Program-made: the position numbers and the translations under genes
Notes under the pieces: generated by a model
What the model was told of the DNA's origin: nothing
What the model saw: only the letters and a program-made list of their open reading frames with translations
The model's database searches: none
Shown here: positions 3,424 through 45,994 of the stretch, piece by piece
How positions within the stretch are numbered: the stretch's first letter is position 1
Layout: the number at the start of each line of letters is the position of its first letter
Source: Methylomarinum vadi
GTDB taxonomy: Bacteria > Pseudomonadota > Gammaproteobacteria > Methylococcales > Methylomonadaceae
Assembly: GCF_000733935.1 (NCBI RefSeq)
Contig: NZ_JPON01000001.1
Span: 2,650,501-2,714,500 of the forward strand
Reading direction: 5' to 3'
DNA: 64,000 nt

Positions 3424-4359
3424 ATGCAGTTAATCAGGGGGCTAGCTCATCTTGAACCATTGCATCGTGGTTGTGTGTTGACGATAGGAAACTTTGACGG
3501 ACTGCATTTGGGGCACCGGGCGGTTATAGAAAAATTGGCATCGCACGGCGAAAAATTGGGTTTGCCGGCTGTGGTGTTGTTGTTCGAACCGCAACCGTTG
3601 GAATATTTTCTCGGTGAAAATGCCCCTTCCCGGCTGACCCGGTTGCGGGAAAAGGTCATACAATTCTCCTCATTGCCGGTCGACCAATTGCTGGTTTTGG
3701 GGTTTAATCGGCATTTGGCGAATTACCGAGCCGAGGATTTCATCAAGGATATCTTGATTGACAATTTGAACGTCAAATACCTGGTGGTTGGCGACGATTT
3801 TCATTTCGGCAAGGCGCGCCGGGGTAATTTCGCCATGTTGAAGGAGGCTGGGGAACAATACGGTTTTCAGGTCGAGGATACCCGCTCCCTCGAGTTGGAT
3901 GGCATGCGCATTAGCAGCACATTGATACGCGATGCCCTGGGCGAAGGTAATCTGGCTTTGGCGGCTAAGATGTTGGGGCGCGATTATTCGGTTTGCGGCA
4001 GGGTGGCGCATGGTGATAAAAGAGGCAGGACGCTGGGTTTTCCGACCGCCAATATCGAGATGTTCAGGAAGAACACGCCGATTGTCGGCGTCTATGCCGT
4101 CACCATGACCGGTATCGATGGTCGGGAATATGCCGGCGTGGCCAATGTGGGAACTCGTCCGACAGTTGACGGTAGCGCCAAGGTGATTCTGGAGACGCAT
4201 TTATTCGACTTTAATCGCGAGATTTACGGCGCCTATGTCGAGGTGCATTTTAAACGGAAGATTCGCGATGAGATGCGTTTTCATTCGCTGCAACAGTTAC
4301 AACAGCAGATCGATCATGATGTGCGGCAGGCTAAAGAGATTTTTGCTGATTTAAAATAA
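3424..4359 (+). CDS. ribF: bifunctional riboflavin kinase / FAD synthetase
   Basis: Converts riboflavin to FMN and then to FAD. The 311-residue protein has an N-terminal nucleotidyltransferase domain with the TIGNFDGLHLGH motif (residues 20-31) and the SSTLIRDAL motif. A C-terminal riboflavin kinase domain carries GRVAHGDKRGRTLGFPTANI at about 190-210. Full length compared with E. coli RibF. It is followed after 3 bases by ileS and then lspA, the standard gammaproteobacterial ribF-ileS-lspA order, so the three are probably co-transcribed. Confidence 0.97.
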   Translation: MQLIRGLAHLEPLHRGCVLTIGNFDGLHLGHRAVIEKLASHGEKLGLPAVVLLFEPQPLEYFLGENAPSRLTRLREKVIQFSSLPVDQLLVLGFNRHLANYRAEDFIKDILIDNLNVKYLVVGDDFHFGKARRGNFAMLKEAGEQYGFQVEDTRSLELDGMRISSTLIRDALGEGNLALAAKMLGRDYSVCGRVAHGDKRGRTLGFPTANIEMFRKNTPIVGVYAVTMTGIDGREYAGVANVGTRPTVDGSAKVILETHLFDFNREIYGAYVEVHFKRKIRDEMRFHSLQQLQQQIDHDVRQAKEIFADLK

Positions 4360-35467: not shown

Positions 35468-36853
35468 TTAACCGACCAAAGGCCAGAAGCTCCGTTTTCG
35501 TCCATGTTGTTGGCGCAATTGCTGCTCGTAGAGCAAATGTGAAATTAATGGGTCATATTCCGGTTTTTGCTCGTCCAATTTACGCAGAGCCTTCAGATAA
35601 TCCGCGGCATAACGATAGGCTTGGGACTTGCCTCGGTTTAGAATGTCGTCAAGTAGACATCGCTGTAACACGACACGGAGGAGCACCGAGTTCGCCGGTG
35701 TAATTCCCAGCAAATGACTCAGCGTCATATAATGACACTGTGCTAATTCTTCTCTATCCGCCACGGCACTCTGTTGCGCCAGATCGAACTCTTCCAATTT
35801 GAGTAACAATTCCAGTTTGGCGGCGGAATCTTTTTGCATGGCCAAGTCGATTGCCATTTGGCGTAGTCTCTCTGCTTCGTCCTTCGCGACCAAGGGCAGT
35901 AGCGACTGGAGATTTTCGTAAGTAGGACTGAGTTCGAGGCGCGCCCTTAGCGCATCCCGTTGTTGCTGCGGTTGGTTTAGCGCTTCGTAGCATTGCGCCA
36001 GCAAGGTCAAGCGTTCGCAATTGGAATCTCGCCAACCCGTCGTTGGCCAAGGTTCCGTCAACCACTGCAACGCCCCTTTATAATCGTCGCATAGCATATA
36101 GAAGCGCGCCAGGCTATCGAGTTGCATCTGGTTAGGTTGCGGGCTGACTAGTACTATCGAGCGTCGGTACAACTCCGTATCTTTTAAGGCTTCGGCGACC
36201 CCTTGGAGATTGACTTTCCAGCTCAAATAACGTGAGTCGTTAGCATGTTGAGCCAACGTCTTGCGTAGTCCCGTTTCATAGAAAAAAGCCAGTTGTCGCA
36301 ACTCCTCTTGACTCAAGAGCAGATGGGCATTAGGCAGCAAGGGGTCGAAAACGGCGTAATCGTTGTTTTCGGCCATGTCTTTGACGCGCTCCAACCATCC
36401 TCCCGATGGTGCCGGGCAGCGTTTGGCCGCTTGCAACCATAACAGACAGGCTTGCTGATACAGACCACCGACATAACCGTCGGAATCATCACACCGTTCC
36501 AGGCTGTTGGCTGCGGTATCCAGAAGCGCATCTAGCAGAGCAAGTGCACGCTCTGGGGAGTTTGGTAGAATATGATGCTCGATCTCGGCAAGCAATTGTT
36601 GAATCTCATCGCCAAAGGCGTCGGTTTCGTAGTAGTCGTAAAACGTTCTCCCTCGTTTCAGGTTTTCAATTTGTTGTCGCGACAAATCCACCAAGGCCTC
36701 GCTGTCTTCGCTCAACAGTAGTCGCTCGATGCGCTGGTCGATTCTGGTATCAAATTCGCCATATAAACTGGCGATGAATTCAACCAGCGCGTCTTTTTTC
36801 AGTTCGGCCAAGCCGGCTGCTAATTGATTTTCCTCATTCATCGGTATTTTCAT
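35468..36853 (-). CDS. helical-repeat protein, DUF6880-like
   Basis: A roughly 461-residue soluble protein made of short amphipathic helices, Leu/Ala/Glu-rich, with no signal peptide or membrane span. It starts LAAGLAELKKDALVEFIASL and ends in ALRKLDEQKPEYDPLISHLL. The N-terminal pattern and TPR-like helices resemble DUF6880 proteins, sometimes called SWIM-associated; the match is from memory and modest. The start is unclear: ATG at 36853 or 36841, or GTG at 36883, none with a clear ribosome-binding site. Its 5' end (36837-36883) is duplicated at 37190-37236. It stands alone behind parB, convergent, and next to the repeat-rich gap. Confidence 0.65.
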   Translation of the reverse strand: MKIPMNEENQLAAGLAELKKDALVEFIASLYGEFDTRIDQRIERLLLSEDSEALVDLSRQQIENLKRGRTFYDYYETDAFGDEIQQLLAEIEHHILPNSPERALALLDALLDTAANSLERCDDSDGYVGGLYQQACLLWLQAAKRCPAPSGGWLERVKDMAENNDYAVFDPLLPNAHLLLSQEELRQLAFFYETGLRKTLAQHANDSRYLSWKVNLQGVAEALKDTELYRRSIVLVSPQPNQMQLDSLARFYMLCDDYKGALQWLTEPWPTTGWRDSNCERLTLLAQCYEALNQPQQQRDALRARLELSPTYENLQSLLPLVAKDEAERLRQMAIDLAMQKDSAAKLELLLKLEEFDLAQQSAVADREELAQCHYMTLSHLLGITPANSVLLRVVLQRCLLDDILNRGKSQAYRYAADYLKALRKLDEQKPEYDPLISHLLYEQQLRQQHGRKRSFWPLVG

Positions 36854-36883
36854 TTGCGTCGCAGACTGTCGATGTTCCAGCAC
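36837..36883. repeat. direct repeat copy 1 (5' end of DUF6880-like gene)
   Basis: These 47 bases, covering the start region of the DUF6880-like gene, match 37190-37236 at 42 of 47 positions in the same orientation. Both contain the ATG-AAA-ATA-CCG-ATG start segment on the minus strand. Confidence 0.85.
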
Positions 36884-37064
36884 TTTTTCTATTGTATAGT
36901 CAGCTTTTTTTTAACAATAGTTTGTATTAAGACCTGACATTGATAAATCTCTGATCAGCCAAAAAAAGCTACAAACACAGTAAACAATTGAATGTCGAGT
37001 CAGTTTCTGAGAGCATTCTGCCATACTTAAGACTAATGGTCATGGCAAAACTACAGCCCGTAGC

Positions 37065-37088
37065 GTGCGGTGAGGTAACGAACCGCAC
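37065..37088. repeat. inverted repeat, GTGCGGT / ACCGCAC
   Basis: GTGCGGT at 37065-37071 pairs with ACCGCAC at 37082-37088 over a 10-base loop. A related sequence, GGTGCGGTTCGCAAGCTCCC, follows at 37116-37135. Together they look like a REP-type palindrome pair. Confidence 0.7.
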
Positions 37089-37115
37089 GGAACGTGGTTA
37101 AAACGTTTCGCGAAC

Positions 37116-37146
37116 GGTGCGGTTCGCAAGCTCCCCAGCACCCTAC
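37116..37146. repeat. second REP-like element
   Basis: GGTGCGGTTCGCAAGCTCCC then CAGCACCCTAC. It resembles, with a degenerate right arm, the element 40 bases to its left in reverse orientation. The left arm GGTGC can pair with GCACC at 37138-37142. Confidence 0.55.
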
Positions 37147-37189
37147 ATCAGCGCATGTTACGAGTTGCATTAAGGAAAAAAGATATTCT

Positions 37190-37236
37190 TTCATCGGTAT
37201 TTTCATTTGTGTCGCAGACAATCGATGTTCAAGAAC
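37190..37236. repeat. direct repeat copy 2, orphan 5' gene fragment
   Basis: Second copy of 36837-36883, with 5 mismatches in 47. After the shared start segment the minus-strand frame has no resemblance to the DUF6880-like protein, so this is an orphan start region left by duplication or recombination rather than a gene. Confidence 0.8.
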
Positions 37237-37345
37237 TCTTGCCCATCATTCGATAAATCTTCTACAGCTTGCCAAGTACCGATAGTGATAGTCTTTGAAT
37301 GCCATTGTCTTTTAAGGCTTGCCGTTATACACAAGTATGTCGTAG

Positions 37346-37373
37346 GTTGGGCTGAGCGATAGTGAAGCCCAAC
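37346..37373. repeat. hairpin repeat, GTTGGGCT / AGCCCAAC
   Basis: GTTGGGCT at 37346-37353 pairs exactly with AGCCCAAC at 37366-37373, loop 12 bases. Same type as the hairpin between trpD and trpC (18645-18673). Confidence 0.75.
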
Positions 37374-37604
37374 ATTTGGCTGTAAAAATCTGGAGTTTTA
37401 AATCAAATGGCTGTCAAATGAAATTCCAAGACGACCAGTCGACTATTTTGGTTAATAGCCCTCTTTTCAAGAACAATCTTTCGAGCAAAATCAAGTACTC
37501 AATCAAATGAAGAAGTTCTTTAAGCCGTTGTTTTTAAATACAGATCGAGTGTAAAAATGCAAAATTAATTGCGTTTGTCAAATGACCGTCAAATGAAAAC
37601 GCTG

Positions 37605-37868
37605 TCATGCCCAGAATGGCACATAGCGATAAGCTTTTCTATTTGCCTTAGGATCGTATAAACGGATTAGTCCGGCTTCGACAGTTTGCTTGATAACGCA
37701 GCTTGCAATAGCACTGTTGCTTTCATCAATATTCAAACGCTCTCTTAACGAAGTATTGTTCATCGGCACTCGATTGACATACTTTAAGCAGCAATGTTGA
37801 TAACAAGCTCGAATTCGATCTTCGGTATCCATTTCGTTGCCTGCATACCGTTTAAATGCTTGAGCCAA
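37605..37868 (-). pseudogene. winged-helix C-terminal fragment of an AlbA_2/RecG-like regulator
   Basis: An 87-codon frame. The part from DRIRACYQHCCLKYVNR through TSLRERLNIDESNSA, ASCVIKQTVEAGLIRLYDP and the final YVPFWA matches the C-terminal winged helix of AlbA_2-type ATP-binding regulators, which are normally about 450-600 residues. The AlbA and ATPase parts are missing. The first residues overlap the 3' end of darG by 17 bases, so the fragment could be expressed with that operon. I read it as a leftover of a longer gene cut away when darG arrived, though a free-standing small DNA-binding protein cannot be excluded. Confidence 0.6.
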
Positions 37869-38898
37869 TCCAATGTTCTCGTTCTAAAACATTTAGCGCT
37901 AATTTAATTTGTCTAGGCGTAAATTGCTTCTTTCGTTGATTCCAGGTATGGGTTGCCTTAACTACATCTTCGATGGTTTTTGCCTTTTCGTGTCTTTTGA
38001 GCCAATGGACAGTAGCAAGCAATTCTAAGCCGAATGGCGATTCGAAGCCCTCAACCAGTTTAGACACTTTAATAAATCGATCACGCGTATCAGGATGTTG
38101 ATCAAGGAAAGAATTGGCTTCTTCAATAGCTCCGGGGATCAAATTCAGAGATTTATCAGGCGCATCACCGCCATCGGCATAGCACGATAAATAATGCCCT
38201 TCGATGGCATTAAGCACATGACGAAGATTTTCCGCATAAGGACCATAATGCGCTTTTTTAAACTTCAAACGTAAAGGTTCTCCAGCTTCTTGCATAAAAT
38301 AGAGCAGCTTATGCACTTCTATCAGCGAGACGGTTGGGTCCAAGAGGCCGCTCAAGTAGCGCTGTATTAATTCAATTAACACGGCGCGACCTGCAGTCAT
38401 TTTAGGCACGGCGCGATTGTGTGCCATTGTATCGTTACTGGGTGAACCTTTGGGCTCATAAATCAGCACTCGAACGTCCGATAGAACACTAAGATTTTTC
38501 TCAATTAGTTGCCTAACCTGGTTCCAGTCCAAACCACCTAGTCCACTACCTAAAGGAGGAATGGCAATGGATTGAATATTTTTTTCCTTAATTGTTTGAA
38601 CCAAGGCTTCAAGACCAGCCTCAATATCTTCCATACGACTAGCCCCACGCCAATGCCGCTTGGTTGGAAAATTAATGATATAGCGAGGATTAACAAGCTG
38701 ACCCGTATCAAAAACAAACATCTTACCCGGTTGTACCTGCTTGTTTTTACAGGCAATCGCATATGCCGTAAAGTTTTCCGGCCAGGCCTTTTTAAACTGC
38801 AGGGCGATACCACGGCCCATTACCCCGACACAATTAACGGTATTCACAATCGCCTCGGCATCGGCACGTAAAATATCGCCAGATGTAAATTCAATCAT
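37852..38898 (-). CDS. darG: DarG macrodomain antitoxin (DNA ADP-ribosyl glycohydrolase)
   Basis: A 348-residue protein. Residues 1-155 form a macrodomain that removes ADP-ribose from thymidine in DNA: GDILRADAEAIVNTVN, GVMGRGIALQFKKAWPENF, Lys80 in NFPTKRHWRG (the position of the catalytic Lys in Thermus DarG), and IAIPPLGSGLGGLDW. Residues about 165-348 form the helical C-terminal domain that binds and neutralises DarT (LIELIQRYLSGLLDPTVSL, LRLKFKKAHYGPYAENLRH). It starts 13 bases after darT and is co-oriented, the normal darT-darG order. Part of the hsd-dar transcription unit. Confidence 0.93.
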   Translation of the reverse strand: MIEFTSGDILRADAEAIVNTVNCVGVMGRGIALQFKKAWPENFTAYAIACKNKQVQPGKMFVFDTGQLVNPRYIINFPTKRHWRGASRMEDIEAGLEALVQTIKEKNIQSIAIPPLGSGLGGLDWNQVRQLIEKNLSVLSDVRVLIYEPKGSPSNDTMAHNRAVPKMTAGRAVLIELIQRYLSGLLDPTVSLIEVHKLLYFMQEAGEPLRLKFKKAHYGPYAENLRHVLNAIEGHYLSCYADGGDAPDKSLNLIPGAIEEANSFLDQHPDTRDRFIKVSKLVEGFESPFGLELLATVHWLKRHEKAKTIEDVVKATHTWNQRKKQFTPRQIKLALNVLEREHWIGSSI

Positions 38899-38911
38899 AC
38901 TGACGCCCCCT

Positions 38912-39553
38912 TTAGTAGTACCATTCTGGTTTTATTGTAGTAGTTGGACGATGATTCGCCTCTTGTAATATATTCATCACCTGCTGATAAGTGGAATGCG
39001 AGTACACACCAATACATTCCACTAACTGCCAAGGAAAACTCAATTCCATTAAGAACTCTGCTTGCTTCCCCTCCTTGCAACTCTGCCACTGCTTGGTCTG
39101 AATCGCCTGCCAGTCTAGTTCATCAAGCTGAGCCAAATCACAGCGGTCTTCAAAATAGTAAGACCCTGCATTAGACAAGGTAAATACCCAACGCCGTTGA
39201 TGTTGCCGGGCCCACTCGACAGAGGCATACAAGTCCGCTTGCAAATGCAGTATTTTGGCCTGCCCTCCTCGATACGCCAGTTCCGGGTGATTGGCTTGAT
39301 GAATAAGATATAACATGATCGAGCGAGGGCAGAAATAAAACGGTACGCATTCCCCCACATGTAAATCCGGGTAATTGTCCAGTGTCAATTCCTGCAAGCG
39401 ACGCTGTTTGATGCTATTCATGCCAATGGTTGTACCAGTGGCATTGTATGACACGATTTGCGCATCAGACAATAATCCACCAGACGCAATTATTGCCTCC
39501 AACCTATCCATATGAACAATATGATAAATCTTGGGCTGTGCAGGTACGATCAT
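38912..39553 (-). CDS. darT: DarT toxin (DNA thymidine ADP-ribosyltransferase)
   Basis: A 213-residue DUF4433-type toxin that ADP-ribosylates thymidines in single-stranded DNA using NAD. Family features are YHIVHMDRLEAIIASGGL at the start, the NAD-site Arg51 in NSIKQRRLQEL, VPFYFCPRSIMLYLIH, and the catalytic Glu166 in KQAEFLMELSFPW. All catalytic positions appear intact, so it should be toxic without DarG. Its ATG overlaps the TGA of a 45-codon ORF (ATGA at 39550-39553), so translation is tied to what was read upstream. DarTG systems act in phage defence and growth control. Confidence 0.93.
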   Translation of the reverse strand: MIVPAQPKIYHIVHMDRLEAIIASGGLLSDAQIVSYNATGTTIGMNSIKQRRLQELTLDNYPDLHVGECVPFYFCPRSIMLYLIHQANHPELAYRGGQAKILHLQADLYASVEWARQHQRRWVFTLSNAGSYYFEDRCDLAQLDELDWQAIQTKQWQSCKEGKQAEFLMELSFPWQLVECIGVYSHSTYQQVMNILQEANHRPTTTIKPEWYY

Positions 39554-39687
39554 TCATGCCTCCTTTTTGCCGTGGCGGCAGGAAACGTGTTATCAACGAA
39601 ACAATCCGCTTTGGCCTTGCGATAGGCCACTACTAAATCTTCGAGGGTAAGGTTTTGCCAGCCGGTAAAGTTTGCCTGATAGCCCAC
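39550..39687 (-). CDS. 45-codon truncated ORF coupled to darT
   Basis: From GTG at 39687, preceded by AAAGGA 6 bases upstream, the frame reads MGYQANFTGWQNLTLEDLVV, then AYRKAKADCFVDNTFPAATA and KRRHE. It begins 13 bases after the hsdS stop and its TGA overlaps the darT ATG. The first 35 residues look like a normal protein N-terminus and the last ten look like out-of-frame tail, which suggests the rest of a longer gene was deleted. I have a weak recollection of this N-terminus on reverse-transcriptase-like proteins beside type I restriction genes, but I cannot confirm it. Confidence 0.5.
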   Translation of the reverse strand: MGYQANFTGWQNLTLEDLVVAYRKAKADCFVDNTFPAATAKRRHE

Positions 39688-39700
39688 TACATTCCTTTGA

Positions 39701-40981
39701 TTATTTCACCATGACCTGGCCGTTCATTAGCATGGGGAGTAACCAGTCCCTTAATGCTTCAAGATATTTATTTTCTTTTAAAACAATATCTCTCTGTTTA
39801 AATAGTGACTTGCAATGCTGCTCGTATTTTTCAAGTAATTTATTTGGTGGTTGATAAGTTTTAAACCACTTCACACCGTTTAAATCTAAGTGAAGAACCA
39901 GAGTCCCAGAAGCGTAGTGTTTTATATATTTATGGTAGCTTTCCGAATTAAATAACTGCTCCAAGTAGGCTGTGCCGAATGTCTTGGAAGATAGGCATGC
40001 TACATCGCAGGAAATCAGAGGAGTTTCATCAAAAATATCAGGAATAACAAATGCTTTGCCGATTATATCCGCGTTCCTTGTGACGTCAGTAATGGCAATA
40101 ACCAACTCTCCGGCATCTAGCTTACTTTCAGGCTTGAACTTCCCGTTATAGTATTTGGTGCCTTCCAATTTAAATTCACCGGATAATGAAAACGAGTTCA
40201 AGTTAATGAATGGTACGCCATCATCCTGGATGTCGCCGCTTTTGTATGATATTCCACGTCTAAATGTAATGTGACCTCCAAGCTGGCAGTCAGCCCACCC
40301 CTCCGGTATTTCCCGTTTTAGGGTTGGGTTGTAGACCATTTTGCCGCCGGAGGTTTTGTAGGGTTTGCCGTCGGCATCGGGAAAATCGAACTGTACAAAC
40401 CAGTAGTCGTAGAGGGTTTTCGCCATCGCTTCCAGCTCCGCGTTGATGCGGTTGTTGAGTTCGATTTTTTCATCAAGGGCAGAAAGTACGTTAACAATTT
40501 TTTTCTGCTCATCAGTACTCGGCAGAGGAACTTTAACATCACATATCCGTTCAGGAGAGGTATGTTTTACCTTTGACCCAGATGAAGTTAGACGAATTTG
40601 ATCACGGACGGTTTTGGTCTTGAATAGGTGGTATATAAATTCTTTTACAACTTCTTTCTCATTAACGGTAATGAGCCCTAACCGCTGATTATGCAAATAA
40701 ACACCACTTGCTGGTACTATTGCACAACTACCAAGCAAGCCAGCAGCCTGCTCAGTCATTGCAACGATGAGATCTCCTTCTCTATGTAGATAATCCTCTG
40801 GCACCTCTCCAATGTAAAACTTCTCTTTGCCTCCTTGTCGTTTAAACCCCCCTTCCTCGTAAAAATTTCCAGGAGTTAAGACAATATATTCGCCCTCATC
40901 GGAAAAAAATTCACTTTTAAAGGGAAATCCATGCTTTATAAAAATTTTGCCACGCAGTTGCTTAACTGGCCACTTACTCAT
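39701..40981 (-). CDS. hsdS: type I restriction-modification specificity subunit HsdS
   Basis: A 426-residue subunit that picks the DNA target for the HsdRMS complex. Two target-recognition domains are visible. The first spans about 1-150 (KIFIKHGFPFKSEFFSDEGE, VPLPSTDEQKKIVNVLSALD), followed by a conserved helical spacer (KIELNNRINAELEAMAKTLYDYWFVQFDFP). The second spans about 230-390 (PEGWADCQLGGHITFRRGIS), followed by a final helix (LEALRDWLLPMLMNGQV). The recognition domains are more AT-rich than hsdM and hsdR, as usual for exchanged specificity modules. The target sequence cannot be predicted. Start overlaps the hsdM stop by 8 bases. Confidence 0.93.
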   Translation of the reverse strand: MSKWPVKQLRGKIFIKHGFPFKSEFFSDEGEYIVLTPGNFYEEGGFKRQGGKEKFYIGEVPEDYLHREGDLIVAMTEQAAGLLGSCAIVPASGVYLHNQRLGLITVNEKEVVKEFIYHLFKTKTVRDQIRLTSSGSKVKHTSPERICDVKVPLPSTDEQKKIVNVLSALDEKIELNNRINAELEAMAKTLYDYWFVQFDFPDADGKPYKTSGGKMVYNPTLKREIPEGWADCQLGGHITFRRGISYKSGDIQDDGVPFINLNSFSLSGEFKLEGTKYYNGKFKPESKLDAGELVIAITDVTRNADIIGKAFVIPDIFDETPLISCDVACLSSKTFGTAYLEQLFNSESYHKYIKHYASGTLVLHLDLNGVKWFKTYQPPNKLLEKYEQHCKSLFKQRDIVLKENKYLEALRDWLLPMLMNGQVMVK

Positions 40982-42608
40982 GTATTAACCCCGCCAACTG
41001 CTTTTTGATTTCCACTTCCAGTTCACGTGATTGGCTAAACAAGCTATCCAGATTGCTGCTAAAGCCCTGCATTTTTTCGGCAAACTGCTCCGGGGTAATA
41101 TCCACATATTCGATTTTGACATCAAAATACTGGCCGGCGCTGAGCGAGTAATTCTTACCTGCAATCTCGTCATAACCGATCGCCACCGAAAAATCCTCTT
41201 CGGCCCGCTTGCCGTTAAAGACATCGATAATGCGCTGTTCTTCCTCGGCTCTAAGAACGGTTTTCTGGTTTTTGCCGTCTTTGACTTTTTGGCCCAAGCC
41301 GGATGCATCGATCAAGACCACGTCGCCTTTGTTGCTGTCGTCGATGAACAGGATGGAAACGTTGGTGCCGGTGGTCGCGAAAATATTGCTGGGCATGGAT
41401 ACCACGCCGGCAAGCATTTTTTCATCGACCAGTTTTTGACGGATTTTTTTATCGATACCGGACTGCGCGGTAATAAAGCCGGTGGGTACCACGACCGCCG
41501 CCTTACCGCCCGGTTTCAATGAGTGAATAATGTGCTGCAAGAACAATTGGTAGATTTCCATCTTGTCCTTGGCTTTGGCCTTGATTTTCGGAATACCGGC
41601 AAAGAAACGCGCTTTGTTTTCCTTGGAATCCAATTCGTCGCGGAAGTCGCTGAAATCCATCTTGAACGGCGGATTGGAGACGATGTAATCGAAACGCTTC
41701 AACTCCTTGCCATCCTTGTGATAGGGGTGCAATAAGGTGTTGCCCTGGATCACATTGGGGATGGAATGCACCAGGGTATTCAGAATCAGGTTCAAGCGCA
41801 GCAGGTTGGAGGATTTTTGCGAAATATCCTGGGTGAAGATCGTGCAACGCTTCTCGCCGATGGCATGAGCGACGTTCATCAACAACGTACCCGAGCCGGC
41901 CGACGGGTCATAACAGGTGACGTTTTTAATCTTCCCTTGTTGCTCCTGAGGAACCAGAATGGCCGCCATGATGCGGGCGACGGCATGCGGCGTGTAATAT
42001 TCGGCGTATTTACCGCCGCTGTTGCTGTTGTAATCCTTGATCAGATATTCGAAGATCGTGGCGTAAAAGTCGTATTTTTGGTTGAAGATGCGCTCGAAGC
42101 TGAACTCGACCAGCTTGTTGATGATGGCGCGGCAGAAAGCGTCGCGCTTGGATTCGTCGGCGATGTATTGACTGAGGCGGTCGAACAAGACCACCTTGGC
42201 GCCGCCGTCGGTTTTTATTGCATATACATCGTTATTGCTGATGGCGATGTCCATCAAGGTATCGTCAAACAGTTTGGCGAAATCGGGCGCGTTCTGTTGG
42301 CTAAACAACGAAGCGATAAAGTGCGACGGTTTCAACTTTGCACTGTTCACGCCCATTCTCAATTGCAGCATTTCCAGGTTTTCTTCGCTCATCGCGGCAA
42401 GCGCTTCTTCCCACTTTTCCGCGTTGGCGATAGCTTCATCGCGCTTTTTGGCCTCGTAGGCGAACTTGTCATTCAGAAATTTATAGAGAAATACCTGAGT
42501 GATGATCTTGAATTCATTGCCGTCATTGCCCAGACCATAGTTGGCGCAAATGCCTTTCAGGCTATCGATCAGTTCTTTGGTTTTTTGTTGAAATTCCAGC
42601 TCTACCAC
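40974..42608 (-). CDS. hsdM: type I restriction-modification DNA methyltransferase HsdM
   Basis: A 544-residue N6-adenine methyltransferase. The N-terminal helical domain is present (LKGICANYGLGNDGNEFKII). SAM motif I is VTCYDPSAGSGTLLMNVAHA (about 225-245), the catalytic NPPF is in YIVSNPPFKMDFSD (about 310), and the QLFLQHIIHSLKPGGKAAVVV segment follows. It is intact and full length. Its start overlaps the hsdR stop by 7 bases and its own stop overlaps hsdS, giving an R-M-S gene order. With HsdS it protects host DNA and with HsdR it forms the restriction complex. Confidence 0.96.
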   Translation of the reverse strand: MVELEFQQKTKELIDSLKGICANYGLGNDGNEFKIITQVFLYKFLNDKFAYEAKKRDEAIANAEKWEEALAAMSEENLEMLQLRMGVNSAKLKPSHFIASLFSQQNAPDFAKLFDDTLMDIAISNNDVYAIKTDGGAKVVLFDRLSQYIADESKRDAFCRAIINKLVEFSFERIFNQKYDFYATIFEYLIKDYNSNSGGKYAEYYTPHAVARIMAAILVPQEQQGKIKNVTCYDPSAGSGTLLMNVAHAIGEKRCTIFTQDISQKSSNLLRLNLILNTLVHSIPNVIQGNTLLHPYHKDGKELKRFDYIVSNPPFKMDFSDFRDELDSKENKARFFAGIPKIKAKAKDKMEIYQLFLQHIIHSLKPGGKAAVVVPTGFITAQSGIDKKIRQKLVDEKMLAGVVSMPSNIFATTGTNVSILFIDDSNKGDVVLIDASGLGQKVKDGKNQKTVLRAEEEQRIIDVFNGKRAEEDFSVAIGYDEIAGKNYSLSAGQYFDVKIEYVDITPEQFAEKMQGFSSNLDSLFSQSRELEVEIKKQLAGLIHE

Positions 42609-45600
42609 GTACGCGTTCCAGTATTAAATTCGTTCAGATATTCGGCGACGACCAGGTTATTGATATAACGCGAGGCGTCGGGATTGAGTTTGATATGTTG
42701 TTGGTCCATAAAGCGGTTGATGACCAGCGGCATCATCATGCGTTCAAAATAACTTTCATTGTCCAGTAATTGGGTGTTTTGCAGGACCTGCTCGTCGGCG
42801 TCTTGCTTTACGCCCGTTAAGGCCTCGAAAATTTTGTGCTCGGAATCGGAGACATTGCCGCGCTCGGTCAAACGCTTGTGAATTCGGGTGTATTTAACAT
42901 CACCATCGTATTTTTGGCGCATTTGATTGTTTTGGCGATTAAGCGCCTTGACACGTTCATGAATTTTGTTGAGTGCGTCGATGTTTTGTTTCATTTCATC
43001 CTGAGTGACTTCGCTGAGGTTTTTCTTCTTGAAAAGCCGCTCCAGCTCTTCTTTCAGGGTAATGAATTTGGGGTCTTGCTGGTCAAAATTGCTGGCCAGT
43101 GCCTCGCGTGTCTGGCGTAAGGTATTCTTCAGCTTGTCCGCCAGTATCAATTCTTCCTCGCTGATTTTGGCGAATTTGAAGATAACCTCTTCCAGCGCGA
43201 CATTTAGCAGATTCGTCGTATCACTGCCTTGTTCGATGTTCTCTTTTAGGTTTAGCAGATCCAGATGATTGCTGGTTTCGCGATACAACAGATTGAGCTT
43301 TTGAAAATCCAGGTGCTCGAGAAAATCGTAATCGCCTTGCAAGCGGATCAGATTGTATAGACTCTTGGCGTCCGCCAGGGCCTTTTTCAGCGCCAGCACG
43401 GTTTCGCGATCCTGAATTTCGTTGATCTGCTGAGAGAAAATCTCGGCATTTTTAGTGTCGAAGTGAAACAGCGTTTCCTTGATTTGATCGATTTCCGCGA
43501 TGATCTCGTCTTGCGACTTGAACAAGTTGGAGTAATGCTCCATTTCGTCGCCCAGCTCGGACTGCAGTTCATCAAAGTAGGCTTTATTGGTGGCGTCAAA
43601 CTCTTTGCGGATGTCGGCGAAGTCCACTACGTATCCGTAGCGGAAGTCTTTGTAGGTCCTGTTGACGCGAGTCAGCGCCTGAAGCAAGTTGTGTTTGCGG
43701 ATCACCCGGCCCAGATACAATTTTTTAAGGCGTTTGGCGTCAAAACCGGTGAGCAGCATGTTATAGACAAACAGAAAGTCTATTTTGCCCGCTTTGAAGT
43801 CTTCCACCCATTCCTTGCGCTCTTCTTTACTGCCGATGTCGTGCAGAATCAGGGCGGCCGTTTTAACCTTGTTGGCCTGTTTGATTTTTTCGCTATAGCT
43901 TGTTTTAGGTTCCGCTATTTCGGGTTGTTGTGCTTGGCCGGGAATGAATGCAGGCGGCACGCTTTCAGCATAAATGGCGTTGAAAATTTCGAACATCTCC
44001 TTGGCTTGTTCGGAGCTGTCGCAGATCACCATGCCGCCGATCGAGGCATCATTCATCGCTCCGCGACTCTTTTCGAAATCGGTGATGATGTACTCCAGCA
44101 TTGGTTCGACAAAACGAGGATGCGCGAAGACCGCTTTCTTGTCGAGTTCGCCCTGCTGAATTTCCACTTCTTCCAGCGCCTGCTGCAGCATGATTTTGTA
44201 GTTGGAGGCGATCTCTTCGCGGATCAAACGCAAGGTGTAGCCGTCCGCGATTGAAGCGTTGTAATAATATTTATGGATATAGTCGCCGAACAACAAGCGC
44301 GAGTTATAGTCGTCGCCTAAAAGCGGCGTGCCCGTCAGCCCGATCTTGATGGCGTTGCGGTCCGACTGATCCAGGTTCGCCAGAAAGCTGCCTCTGGGGT
44401 TATAGCTGCGGTGCACCTCATCGAGAAAATACACGCGCTGGATGGATACATCGTAGTCCTTTGTTTGCAGGACATCCGGGTCGTCTTTGAATTTTTGAAT
44501 ATTGACGACGGTGATTTCCGGTTTGCCGGTGTTGTTGTGAATGACCTTGGTCGCTTTGATGTCCTGCGTGAAGGCTTCGCGTGAGTTGATGGTATGCACA
44601 ACCAAGCCACGACCAGTAAATTCCCGGTGCGCCTGAGTCAACAGGTCCAAGCGGTCGACAATAAAATAGAATTTGGGAATGACTTGCTGGTGTTGGAAAT
44701 AGTCGGTCAGGAAGCGGACGTTATAGTAAGCCAGTGCTGTTTTGCCGCTACCCTGGGTATGCCAGATAATGCCTTTTTTTACCCCTTCATTCAGTTTTTG
44801 CTCAATCGCCTTGGTGGCAAACAATTGCGGGTAACGCATGACATGCTTTTGGATGCCGTCTGTTTCCAATACATAGGTCAGCGCATACTGAAGCACAAAT
44901 GCCAGACGGTCCTGACTGAGCAGTGACGTGCAAAGCCGGTTCGTTGGCCTGTCCGGCGCTTTGTTGGTAACGAACTCCGGGTTGCTTTTGATGACCTCCA
45001 GATTGTTATCCTTGAGCACCGCGTTTTCCTGCTCGTCACTGATTGGCTTCAATAACGCGGTCAGGTTCAGTATCTCTTCTTCCCGGAAATAGTTAAATAT
45101 TGGCTCATGATAAGAAGGGCTGGCGTAAAACGCCCCTTGAATAGGCTGCGGCGAGCCATCGTCATATTCCATATTGTTGGAAAACAACATTAACTGGGTC
45201 ATATTCACAAAGCGCTTGAATTTGGGATTCTGAAAGCGTTTGTTAATGCGATCCCTCTCGGCTAGTACGCCATCGTGATTGTTGGGCTTTTTTACCTCGA
45301 TAAAGACCAGCGGCATGCCATTGATCAGCAAAATGATGTCCGGCCTGAACTCGTCGTCACCATTCTGGTAAGTCAATTCCGTGACGACATGAAAAGTGTT
45401 TTTATCGAAATTTTCAAAATCTATGAGTTTAGTGCCAGAGCGCTCTGTGAGCTTTTCGTAGAAGGCTTTACCGAGGTCCTCGTTATCCAGGGTCAACTTG
45501 ACCTCATCCAGCAAACGCCCAATATCATCCGGCTCAATGCCTTCGTTGATGCCGGTAATCGCCTTATGGAACAAGTCGGGGAAAATATTGGTTTCGATGT

Positions 45601-45697
45601 CCCATGTCGCCTCTTTCAGAGATAGGTATTCGTAACCCAGCCGAACAAGATGCAGAATGGTAGGGATTTTAACGCGAGAGTCTTCATTGAATGACAT
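42602..45697 (-). CDS. hsdR: type I restriction endonuclease subunit HsdR
   Basis: A 1031-residue motor and nuclease subunit. The N-terminal nuclease domain has the PD-(D/E)xK residues Asp120 (RPDIILL), Glu134 and Lys136 (VFIEVKKP). Two RecA-like helicase domains follow, with IIWHTQGSGKTALAYYNVRF (Walker A near residue 315), a DEVH-type Walker B in VYFLDEVHRSYNPRG, and KIGLTGTPLLGDD. The C-terminal part is helical for complex assembly. No frameshift or missing motif is seen, so restriction should be active. It begins 25 bases after the small HTH gene and leads the hsdR-hsdM-hsdS order. Confidence 0.96.
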   Translation of the reverse strand: MSFNEDSRVKIPTILHLVRLGYEYLSLKEATWDIETNIFPDLFHKAITGINEGIEPDDIGRLLDEVKLTLDNEDLGKAFYEKLTERSGTKLIDFENFDKNTFHVVTELTYQNGDDEFRPDIILLINGMPLVFIEVKKPNNHDGVLAERDRINKRFQNPKFKRFVNMTQLMLFSNNMEYDDGSPQPIQGAFYASPSYHEPIFNYFREEEILNLTALLKPISDEQENAVLKDNNLEVIKSNPEFVTNKAPDRPTNRLCTSLLSQDRLAFVLQYALTYVLETDGIQKHVMRYPQLFATKAIEQKLNEGVKKGIIWHTQGSGKTALAYYNVRFLTDYFQHQQVIPKFYFIVDRLDLLTQAHREFTGRGLVVHTINSREAFTQDIKATKVIHNNTGKPEITVVNIQKFKDDPDVLQTKDYDVSIQRVYFLDEVHRSYNPRGSFLANLDQSDRNAIKIGLTGTPLLGDDYNSRLLFGDYIHKYYYNASIADGYTLRLIREEIASNYKIMLQQALEEVEIQQGELDKKAVFAHPRFVEPMLEYIITDFEKSRGAMNDASIGGMVICDSSEQAKEMFEIFNAIYAESVPPAFIPGQAQQPEIAEPKTSYSEKIKQANKVKTAALILHDIGSKEERKEWVEDFKAGKIDFLFVYNMLLTGFDAKRLKKLYLGRVIRKHNLLQALTRVNRTYKDFRYGYVVDFADIRKEFDATNKAYFDELQSELGDEMEHYSNLFKSQDEIIAEIDQIKETLFHFDTKNAEIFSQQINEIQDRETVLALKKALADAKSLYNLIRLQGDYDFLEHLDFQKLNLLYRETSNHLDLLNLKENIEQGSDTTNLLNVALEEVIFKFAKISEEELILADKLKNTLRQTREALASNFDQQDPKFITLKEELERLFKKKNLSEVTQDEMKQNIDALNKIHERVKALNRQNNQMRQKYDGDVKYTRIHKRLTERGNVSDSEHKIFEALTGVKQDADEQVLQNTQLLDNESYFERMMMPLVINRFMDQQHIKLNPDASRYINNLVVAEYLNEFNTGTRTW

Positions 45698-45722
45698 GAC
45701 AGTCCTTGTTTGTATTTTCGTT

Positions 45723-45932
45723 TTAGTTGTTTTCCGGTGCTATTTCCAGCAAATCGCCGACCTGGCATTTAAACAGCAAACACAGCTTGTCTATGGCTTC
45801 CAAGTCCACTTTTTGCGCAGTTTCTTTATAGAGCAGTGTAACGGTGTTTCGGCTAAGTCCCGTTTCTCTGACCACATCGGCTATTCGTAATTTATGTTCG
45901 CCCATCATGCGAGCAAGGTGGCAACGAATCAT
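45723..45932 (-). CDS. small XRE-type HTH regulator
   Basis: A 69-residue protein that is almost all helix-turn-helix: MIRCHLARMMGEHKLRIADV, RETGLSRNTVTLLYKE, VDLEAIDKLCLLFKCQVGDL. This is the YozG/HipB-like short Cro/CI type. It is the first gene of the minus-strand unit leading into hsdR. A 6-bp inverted repeat lies 47 bases upstream of its start. It likely controls its own operon, in the manner of the C proteins that time restriction after modification, but here with hsdR placed ahead of hsdM. Confidence 0.85.
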   Translation of the reverse strand: MIRCHLARMMGEHKLRIADVVRETGLSRNTVTLLYKETAQKVDLEAIDKLCLLFKCQVGDLLEIAPENN

Positions 45933-45978
45933 TGATTTCTCCAGTCAGTTTGAAGACAAGGGTGACAAACTAACATTA

Positions 45979-45994
45979 TTGATTGAAAAATCAA
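45979..45994. promoter_or_regulatory. candidate operator upstream of HTH-hsd-dar operon
   Basis: TTGATT at 45979-45984 pairs exactly with AATCAA at 45989-45994 around GAAA, in an AT-rich segment 47-62 bases before the start of the HTH gene. It is well placed for binding by that gene's dimeric product. Promoter hexamers around it are not convincing. Confidence 0.45.

Follow-up and report, generated by a model that had tools for sequence, protein, structure and literature searches.

Type I restriction by HsdRMS and the DarTG toxin-antitoxin pair are both established anti-phage systems, a point on which the literature agrees with an earlier account of the DNA treated here that was made from its letters alone (the original prediction), and DarG is a known inhibitor of DarT. 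In the available passages of PMC5179494, the presence of DarTG inside type I restriction operons was called frequent in 2016. The available parts of PMC12255303 (2025) describe an Escherichia coli island, RRDM, that provides phage defence and is repressed by the regulator encoded by its first gene, and whose hsdM transcript increases more than 15-fold within an hour of infection. We analysed a 64,000-nucleotide stretch of Methylomarinum vadi (contig NZ_JPON01000001.1, positions 2,650,501 to 2,714,500; hereafter the window), in which a complete type I system is followed by darT and darG on the same strand. The pairing itself is not new, having already been published in the available parts of these two papers; the value of the locus lies in the gene remnants, or scars, on both sides of the darTG genes. 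We conclude that the position downstream of hsdS is probably an exchange slot for defence cargo in which DarTG replaced a reverse transcriptase (RT), the replacement itself being what we infer from the junctions and the relatives described below.

The left scar is a 45-codon open reading frame (ORF) between hsdS and darT, termed ORF45, which had been listed simply as a member of the operon and is the head of an RT gene. Specifically, it matched the N-terminus of the UG5-nitrilase RT family PDLC03780 in PADLOC, and it aligned at 75% to residues 3-38 of a 1069-amino-acid (aa) E. coli plasmid protein that matches PDLC03780 along its full length. Against other RT N-termini the values were 58-73%, and 42% in locus L114 (L and G numbers are our labels for loci and genomes). 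The RT and nitrilase regions are missing, and only the N-terminal head was detected in the window. DNA alignments to RT loci L112, L113, L116, L117 and L118 all stop at position 39573, 20 bases before the darT start. A complete UG5-nitrilase RT was seen beside an AbiE pair on E. coli plasmid NZ_CP146678.1 (L066, 6996-12210), with phage tail genes further on.

ORF45 could alternatively be a functional leader through which translation of darT is coupled to that of hsdS. Its frame is open, it ends 4 nt inside darT, and it shows 5 amino-acid-changing and 12 silent differences from the RT head of G510 in 36 codons. These counts resemble those of some intact RT pairs; between the RT heads of G510 and G010 there are 5.5 changing to 11.5 silent differences. 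However, ORF45 begins with GTG, and the corresponding stump in a Nitrosomonas communis metagenome-assembled genome (MAG; L002) is one codon shorter, stops short of darT, and differs from G510 by 12.3 changing and 11.7 silent changes in 33 codons, compared with 0 changing to 11 silent between the RT heads of G510 and G468. We consider a leader function very unlikely.

The right scar is the small ORF after darG. It had been described as a winged-helix fragment. Alignment identifies it as the final 76 residues of an AlbA_2/Schlafen ATP-binding protein: a 490-aa Providencia protein carrying SLFN_AlbA_2 and HATPase_c_4 matches it at 68% through residues 415-490. Nothing of the 490 residues other than 415-490 was detected in the window, and no Pfam match was obtained. 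DNA alignments of this tail share a start at 37838 in L164, L166, L167 and L168; that of L169 begins at 37835, that of L165 at 37824, and that of the short L170 not before 37718. Note that the 17-bp overlap of this ORF with darG is a product of the TTG rule of the ORF list, as the homology starts at 37838/37835, past the darG stop. The two junctions, 39573 and 37838, are thus located 14-20 bp outside darT and darG. With an RT head on one side and an AlbA_2 tail on the other, DarTG would therefore constitute a cassette of ~1.73 kb between them. In G002, of the same genus, a lone AlbA_2 tail was found as a 100-aa ORF with 88% DNA identity to the window tail and the sequence behind it (L164, 9755-10057), and no hsd match was detected nearby in the 19 kb fetched. 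AlbA_2 genes were observed in the hsd loci of G015, G659, G618 and L022. The 87-aa query gave no second AlbA-type tail in the M. vadi genome at E 0.01.

We searched HsdM in 311 genomes of the order, M. vadi included, and obtained matches at 82-86% in 13 other genomes and at 66-69% in seven more. In G510, a complete RT (1078 aa, no internal stop) starts at most 14 bp from the stop of an intact hsdS. In G468 (L116), an RT cut by the contig end follows a surviving hsdS tail, the hsdS body and hsdR being broken. In G049 (L117) and G010 (L118) a KwaB-like gene comes first and the RT second; the G049 contig ends within the RT, and in G010 the RT is divided between two contigs and has a stop where it breaks. 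The cut or split RT at contig ends in these three drafts (G468, G049, G010) hints at repeats or insertions within the RT. KwaA and KwaB stand behind hsdS in G526, and in G498 an AAA ATPase truncated where the contig stops. G604 has a broken hsd; on a separate contig it has a remnant of an hsdS tail followed by a complete RT. Behind hsdS were found a CxxCxxCC-family gene in G508, an aldehyde-dehydrogenase-like gene in G455 and nothing on the strand in G625; hsdS was broken in G519, only its tail was present in G036, and the contig ended in G008. Taken together, an RT was located behind hsdS in 4 of the 13 relatives, and another defence-like gene in two.

Class-wide, HsdM matched at 69-71% in five of 368 other genomes. 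Behind hsdS were an AriA-AriB (PARIS)-like gene (G351), a HEPN and nucleotidyltransferase gene (G137), a weak Mrr-like match below the cut-off (G202) and an ORF without Pfam match (G379), and the contig edge was reached in G098. The gene order in Agitococcus (L004) was HTH-hsdR-hsdM-hsdS-PDC-S06-small ORF-darT-darG, where HTH denotes helix-turn-helix, and that in the N. communis MAG was hsdM-hsdS-RT stump-darT-darG, with the contig ending inside darG. The 3' tail of hsdS (~39697-39755) was kept in relatives with different or no cargo, with 81-87% DNA identity over 45-59 bp in L142, L148, L070 and L073. A wider proposal, for and against which we see the case as evenly balanced, is that this conserved tail anchors the slot, that UG5-nitrilase RT, Kiwa, PARIS-like, PDC-S06, HEPN-nucleotidyltransferase and DarTG swap there as whole systems, and that the RT-to-DarTG scar was later passed on as one piece between distant proteobacteria, the window genome and Nitrosomonas.

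Several observations weigh against replacement of an RT within such a slot. The remaining 7 of the 13 relatives have no recognised defence gene there, a non-intact hsdS or a contig edge, and G654, the one scanned of the seven relatives at 66-69%, has PRiA4_ORF3 and SEC-C behind hsdS, which belong to no known defence family. The counts of slot occupants are small, and a whole RT continuous with intact hsdRMS was found in one relative only, G510. The changing and silent counts of the window stump do not by themselves separate decay from constraint, and the RT gene that DarTG entered may have been broken beforehand. In addition, L002, the only other genome seen with an RT head and DarTG, has an in-frame stop at codon 185 of darT (3630-3632), and the HsdM tree does not place it as the sister of the window. 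The darT stop of L002 could be real decay or an assembly error.

Next to the relatives of HsdM, we collected 53 loci by DarT similarity alone, with loci having short upstream DNA kept in the denominator. The original prediction had asked whether darT lies close behind hsdS in other genomes, and indeed an hsdS on the darT strand ended within 120 bp of darT in 17 of the 53. These comprise 16 upstream matches of an iterated HsdS model within 120 bp and L052, which was flagged inside since its darT is frameshifted; Pfam Methylase_S confirmed 16 of the 17 hsdS at E 0.001. Four further DarT loci, outside the 17, have hsdS 1.1-3.6 kb upstream. In 8 of the 17 the two genes are listed with a 4-nt overlap. 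An HsdR match was located behind darG in 14 of the 53, up to 3.5 kb away, and in loci with hsdS before darT and HsdR behind darG, HsdM is mostly ~680-780 aa versus 544 in the window.

Such adjacency could reflect functional coupling, for which the available text of PMC12707154 offers a precedent in the anticodon nuclease PrrC with EcoprrI. In that case DarTG would be freed when a phage inhibits HsdRMS, or would act on single strands opened by HsdR, and the 17 of 53 loci in which darT directly follows hsdS, including the 8 with a 4-nt overlap, are consistent with it. On the other hand, DarG is already known to inhibit DarT, unrelated systems fill the same place in close relatives, and DarT relatives exist away from hsd, for example on an 8.3-kb Citrobacter plasmid and in L003, where the 20.6 kb fetched gave no Hsd match. 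The original prediction had suggested a specific link, with DarT acting on strands that restriction exposes or serving as a penalty for loss of hsd; such a link is not needed, because the place behind hsdS is taken by unrelated systems in some relatives and empty in others. We regard coupling as unlikely. The same comparison bears on addiction, in which the toxin-antitoxin pair would chiefly stabilise the restriction locus by punishing its loss. This was put forward in the available passages of PMC5179494 and agrees with the tight linkage, but close hsdRMS loci are kept with other or no cargo, e.g., in G510 and G625, and addiction seems to us quite unlikely.

For the DarT tree, 23 of the 53 loci were chosen without a fixed rule for hsd-linked and other contexts, and plasmid L069 and the window were added. 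The window fell in a six-row clade (100/99) with L002, L004, L003, L006 and the Citrobacter plasmid. A second clade (97/95) consisted of L017, L019, L020, L023, L030 and L031, all of which have the 4-nt hsdS/darT overlap. Other hsd-linked rows were outside both clades, and 11 of the 22 forks were weak. This topology suggests that DarTG was recruited to hsd at least twice; alternatively, there may have been one old hsd-DarTG link with later losses. The Citrobacter plasmid (L069, NZ_CP056352.1), which is mobilizable and 8.3 kb long, carries a DarTG of the window clade and could be a vehicle for the cassette. The HsdM tree contained 18 loci and the window; it left out G098, which reaches a contig edge, G604, which is partial, and the seven relatives with HsdM at 66-69%. 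Its RT-bearing rows did not form one group, in line with an exchange slot. One DNA alignment between the window and L002 covers the hsdS tail, the stump, darT and part of darG. A single RT-to-DarTG event common to the two was considered and not retained; the alignment and the DarT clade favour it, but in the HsdM tree the two do not pair as sisters. It is possible that the shared arrangement arose via recombination or by two events.

We then consider what the genes in the window would do. HsdR, HsdM and HsdS are all there: HsdR has PD...EVK (119) and DEVH (426), with TQGSGKT read in the translation, and HsdM has DPSAGSG (234) and NPPF (312). In DarT the KQAE motif (Glu166) is present, and in DarG FPTK (Lys80). 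All motifs checked are thus in place, in line with the intact catalytic residues of the original prediction, where we take the motif residues of the four proteins to be the catalytic ones. DarT, an ADP-ribosyltransferase with the conserved Glu, is followed by DarG with a macro domain (PDB 5m3i, E 4.8e-56), whose residues 167-335 matched 7yk3_B (E 8e-23). A Glu-to-Ala toxin mutant (E160A) is named in the available passages of PMC5179494. The locus is presumably active today, and the M. vadi genome contains one DarT match.

Under replacement in an exchange slot, the place behind hsdS in the window lineage would once have held a UG5-nitrilase RT. A compact DarTG cassette would have replaced it, leaving its first ~38 codons on the left and, on the right, the tail of a second gene, an AlbA_2 ATP-binding protein of a kind also met in hsd loci. 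HsdRMS would cleave unmodified incoming DNA, and DarTG would form a second, independent layer against phages getting through. When DarG is lost or outpaced in infection, DarT would ADP-ribosylate single-stranded DNA, probably at thymidine, and phage replication would stop; action on single-stranded DNA and on phage replication is known from the DarT family. One promoter would then serve two stacked defences, and the cargo at the tail position could be exchanged.

The features of the locus are summarised in Table 1. The ORF list bore out the predicted run of eight genes on one strand with its gaps (HTH-hsdR 25, hsdS-ORF45 13 and darT-darG 13 bp) and overlaps (hsdR/hsdM 7, hsdM/hsdS 8, ORF45/darT 4 and darG/fragment 17), the two small ORFs being reassigned as above. 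Pfam and PADLOC name 6 of the 8 ORFs (HTH_26 by Pfam only), and both small ORFs are without Pfam match.

Table 1. Window coordinates of the type I restriction and DarTG locus and of its two flanking remnants
Feature	Coordinates	Strand	Product	Evidence
HTH gene	45723..45932	minus	69 aa, small Cro/C1-type	Pfam HTH_26 E 4.9e-20
hsdR, type I restriction subunit	42602..45697	minus	1031 aa	Pfam HSDR_N, SWI2_SNF2, ResIII and motifs
hsdM, type I methyltransferase subunit	40974..42608	minus	544 aa	N6_Mtase; PADLOC PDLC03033 E 2.5e-292; relatives 82-86% identity
hsdS, specificity subunit	39701..40981	minus	426 aa	Pfam Methylase_S E 4.6e-19
ORF45 (UG5-nitrilase, DRT-type RT stump)	39550..39687	minus		PADLOC PDLC03780 E 3.6e-9
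darT toxin gene	38912..39553	minus	213 aa, open throughout	Pfam DarT E 1.7e-61; PADLOC DarT E 1.6e-66
darG antitoxin gene	37852..38898	minus	348 aa, macro domain and C-terminal half	PADLOC DarG E 8.7e-145
AlbA_2/Schlafen ATP-binding gene tail (ORF 37605-37868)	37605..37838	minus	last 76 aa, remnant	
Inferred darTG cassette	37839..39572	minus	~1.73 kb between both junctions	DNA alignment limits

A scan of the locus for transcription signals gave 16 promoter-like matches versus 14.1 in shuffled sequence and 11 terminator-like matches versus 11.0, which is chance level. Within this chance-level scan no minus-strand promoter- or terminator-like site was listed between hsdS and darT, so that no strong promoter and terminator there speak against the single operon of the original prediction. 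A 10-of-12 promoter-like match was located within hsdS (40089-40062), and promoter-like hexamers were located ahead of the HTH gene (46004-45975), the scan not exceeding chance. Transcription of the genes probably starts from a promoter upstream of the HTH gene and yields a single transcript, consistent with their shared strand and tight gaps. Restriction and DarTG might instead be chance neighbours, two unrelated systems with separate promoters in a defence-rich stretch, given that DarT relatives occur on plasmids (29 records) and that the chance-level scan lists the promoter-like site in hsdS. The 13-bp gaps, the lack of a listed promoter- or terminator-like site from hsdS to darT and the adjacency repeated elsewhere oppose this, and we hold it to be highly improbable.

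The first gene encodes an HTH protein whose best PDB match is an XRE-family HTH protein (E 2.6e-4), and it is a probable autoregulator that, by analogy, might act like the repressor of RRDM. Among close relatives with HsdM at 83-86%, eight whose hsdR match is near-complete and preceded by further DNA were searched by tblastn to E 10. The HTH gene was found before hsdR in one, Agitococcus L004, and it was not found in the other seven (L113, L118, L141, L142, L143, L144 and L148), other kinds of regulator not being searched for. Judged from its presence before hsdR in L004 and its absence from the seven others, the HTH gene is optional in this HsdM family, contrary to the proposal that it would be needed for safe establishment since hsdR leads the operon. 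A homologue (73%) precedes a different type I locus in G002 that also bears a distant DarTG (L076, 4894-10995). TAGCTA occurred 0 times in the 240 bp before the window HTH gene and once each before the L004 and L076 homologues. A possible conserved operator, TTAGT-N19-ACTGA (window 45933-45980), was considered and set aside; it is present in the window and L004 and not in L076.

The operon sits between mnmE and a DUF6880 gene, the latter beside parB, with mnmE, parA and parB named from their translations. The G+C content was 43.2% in 36500-40999 and 48.2% in 41000-45932, compared with 53.6% and 53.5% in the flanks. mnmE was present in all five other genomes of the genus, with no hsd, DUF6880 or parAB match in the ~9-11 kb fetched behind it, and an empty site sought between mnmE and the parB side in these five genomes was not definable. 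Behind the operon, a 54-nt direct repeat (36834-36887 and 37187-37240, 87%) overlaps the DUF6880 gene start with one copy, a 39-bp stretch (37339-37377) has 97% identity to G002, and parts of 36880-37604 match other places in the M. vadi genome (E 2e-11 to 1.8e-5).

The scars suggest that the cargo of restriction operons turns over and that a DRT-type RT and DarTG can occupy the same place, with junctions placed within a few bases. The role of an hsd-linked gene thereby becomes testable by comparing natural swaps. They also carry the warning that adjacency alone is no proof of a specific biochemical partnership, and they offer a search rule by which genes beginning directly behind hsdS are candidates for defence systems. 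In literature searched mostly at the level of titles and abstract starts, we found no account of a UG5-nitrilase RT residing behind hsdS, or of an RT replaced by DarTG with both scars kept.

Compared with described systems, the DarTG-containing type I operons of PMC5179494 show the same pairing as the window, and the passages available of that paper, unlike the window, mention neither RT or AlbA_2 remnants nor cargo turnover. In the EcoprrI-PrrC system a toxin gene likewise lies within a type I restriction locus; PrrC, however, is a tRNA nuclease activated upon inhibition of the restriction enzyme, whereas DarT has its own antitoxin (PMC12707154, available text). The UG5-nitrilase RTs (PDLC03780, class DRT) share their head with ORF45, and one of them fills the same place in G510, but only ~38 of ~1070 residues are left in the window. 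RRDM (RptR-RMS-DarTG-M48), from enteropathogenic E. coli, resembles the window in starting with a small regulator gene, in having a complete type I system and in carrying DarTG behind hsdS. According to the available parts of PMC12255303, DarTG2 is placed there between hsdS and hsdR, the island is flanked downstream by an M48 peptidase gene, and the regulator is RptR with TAGCTA sites. In the window, by contrast, hsdR is the second gene, upstream of hsdM, DarTG comes last rather than embedded between hsdS and hsdR, the regulator is of the HTH_26 type, and two gene remnants flank the cassette.

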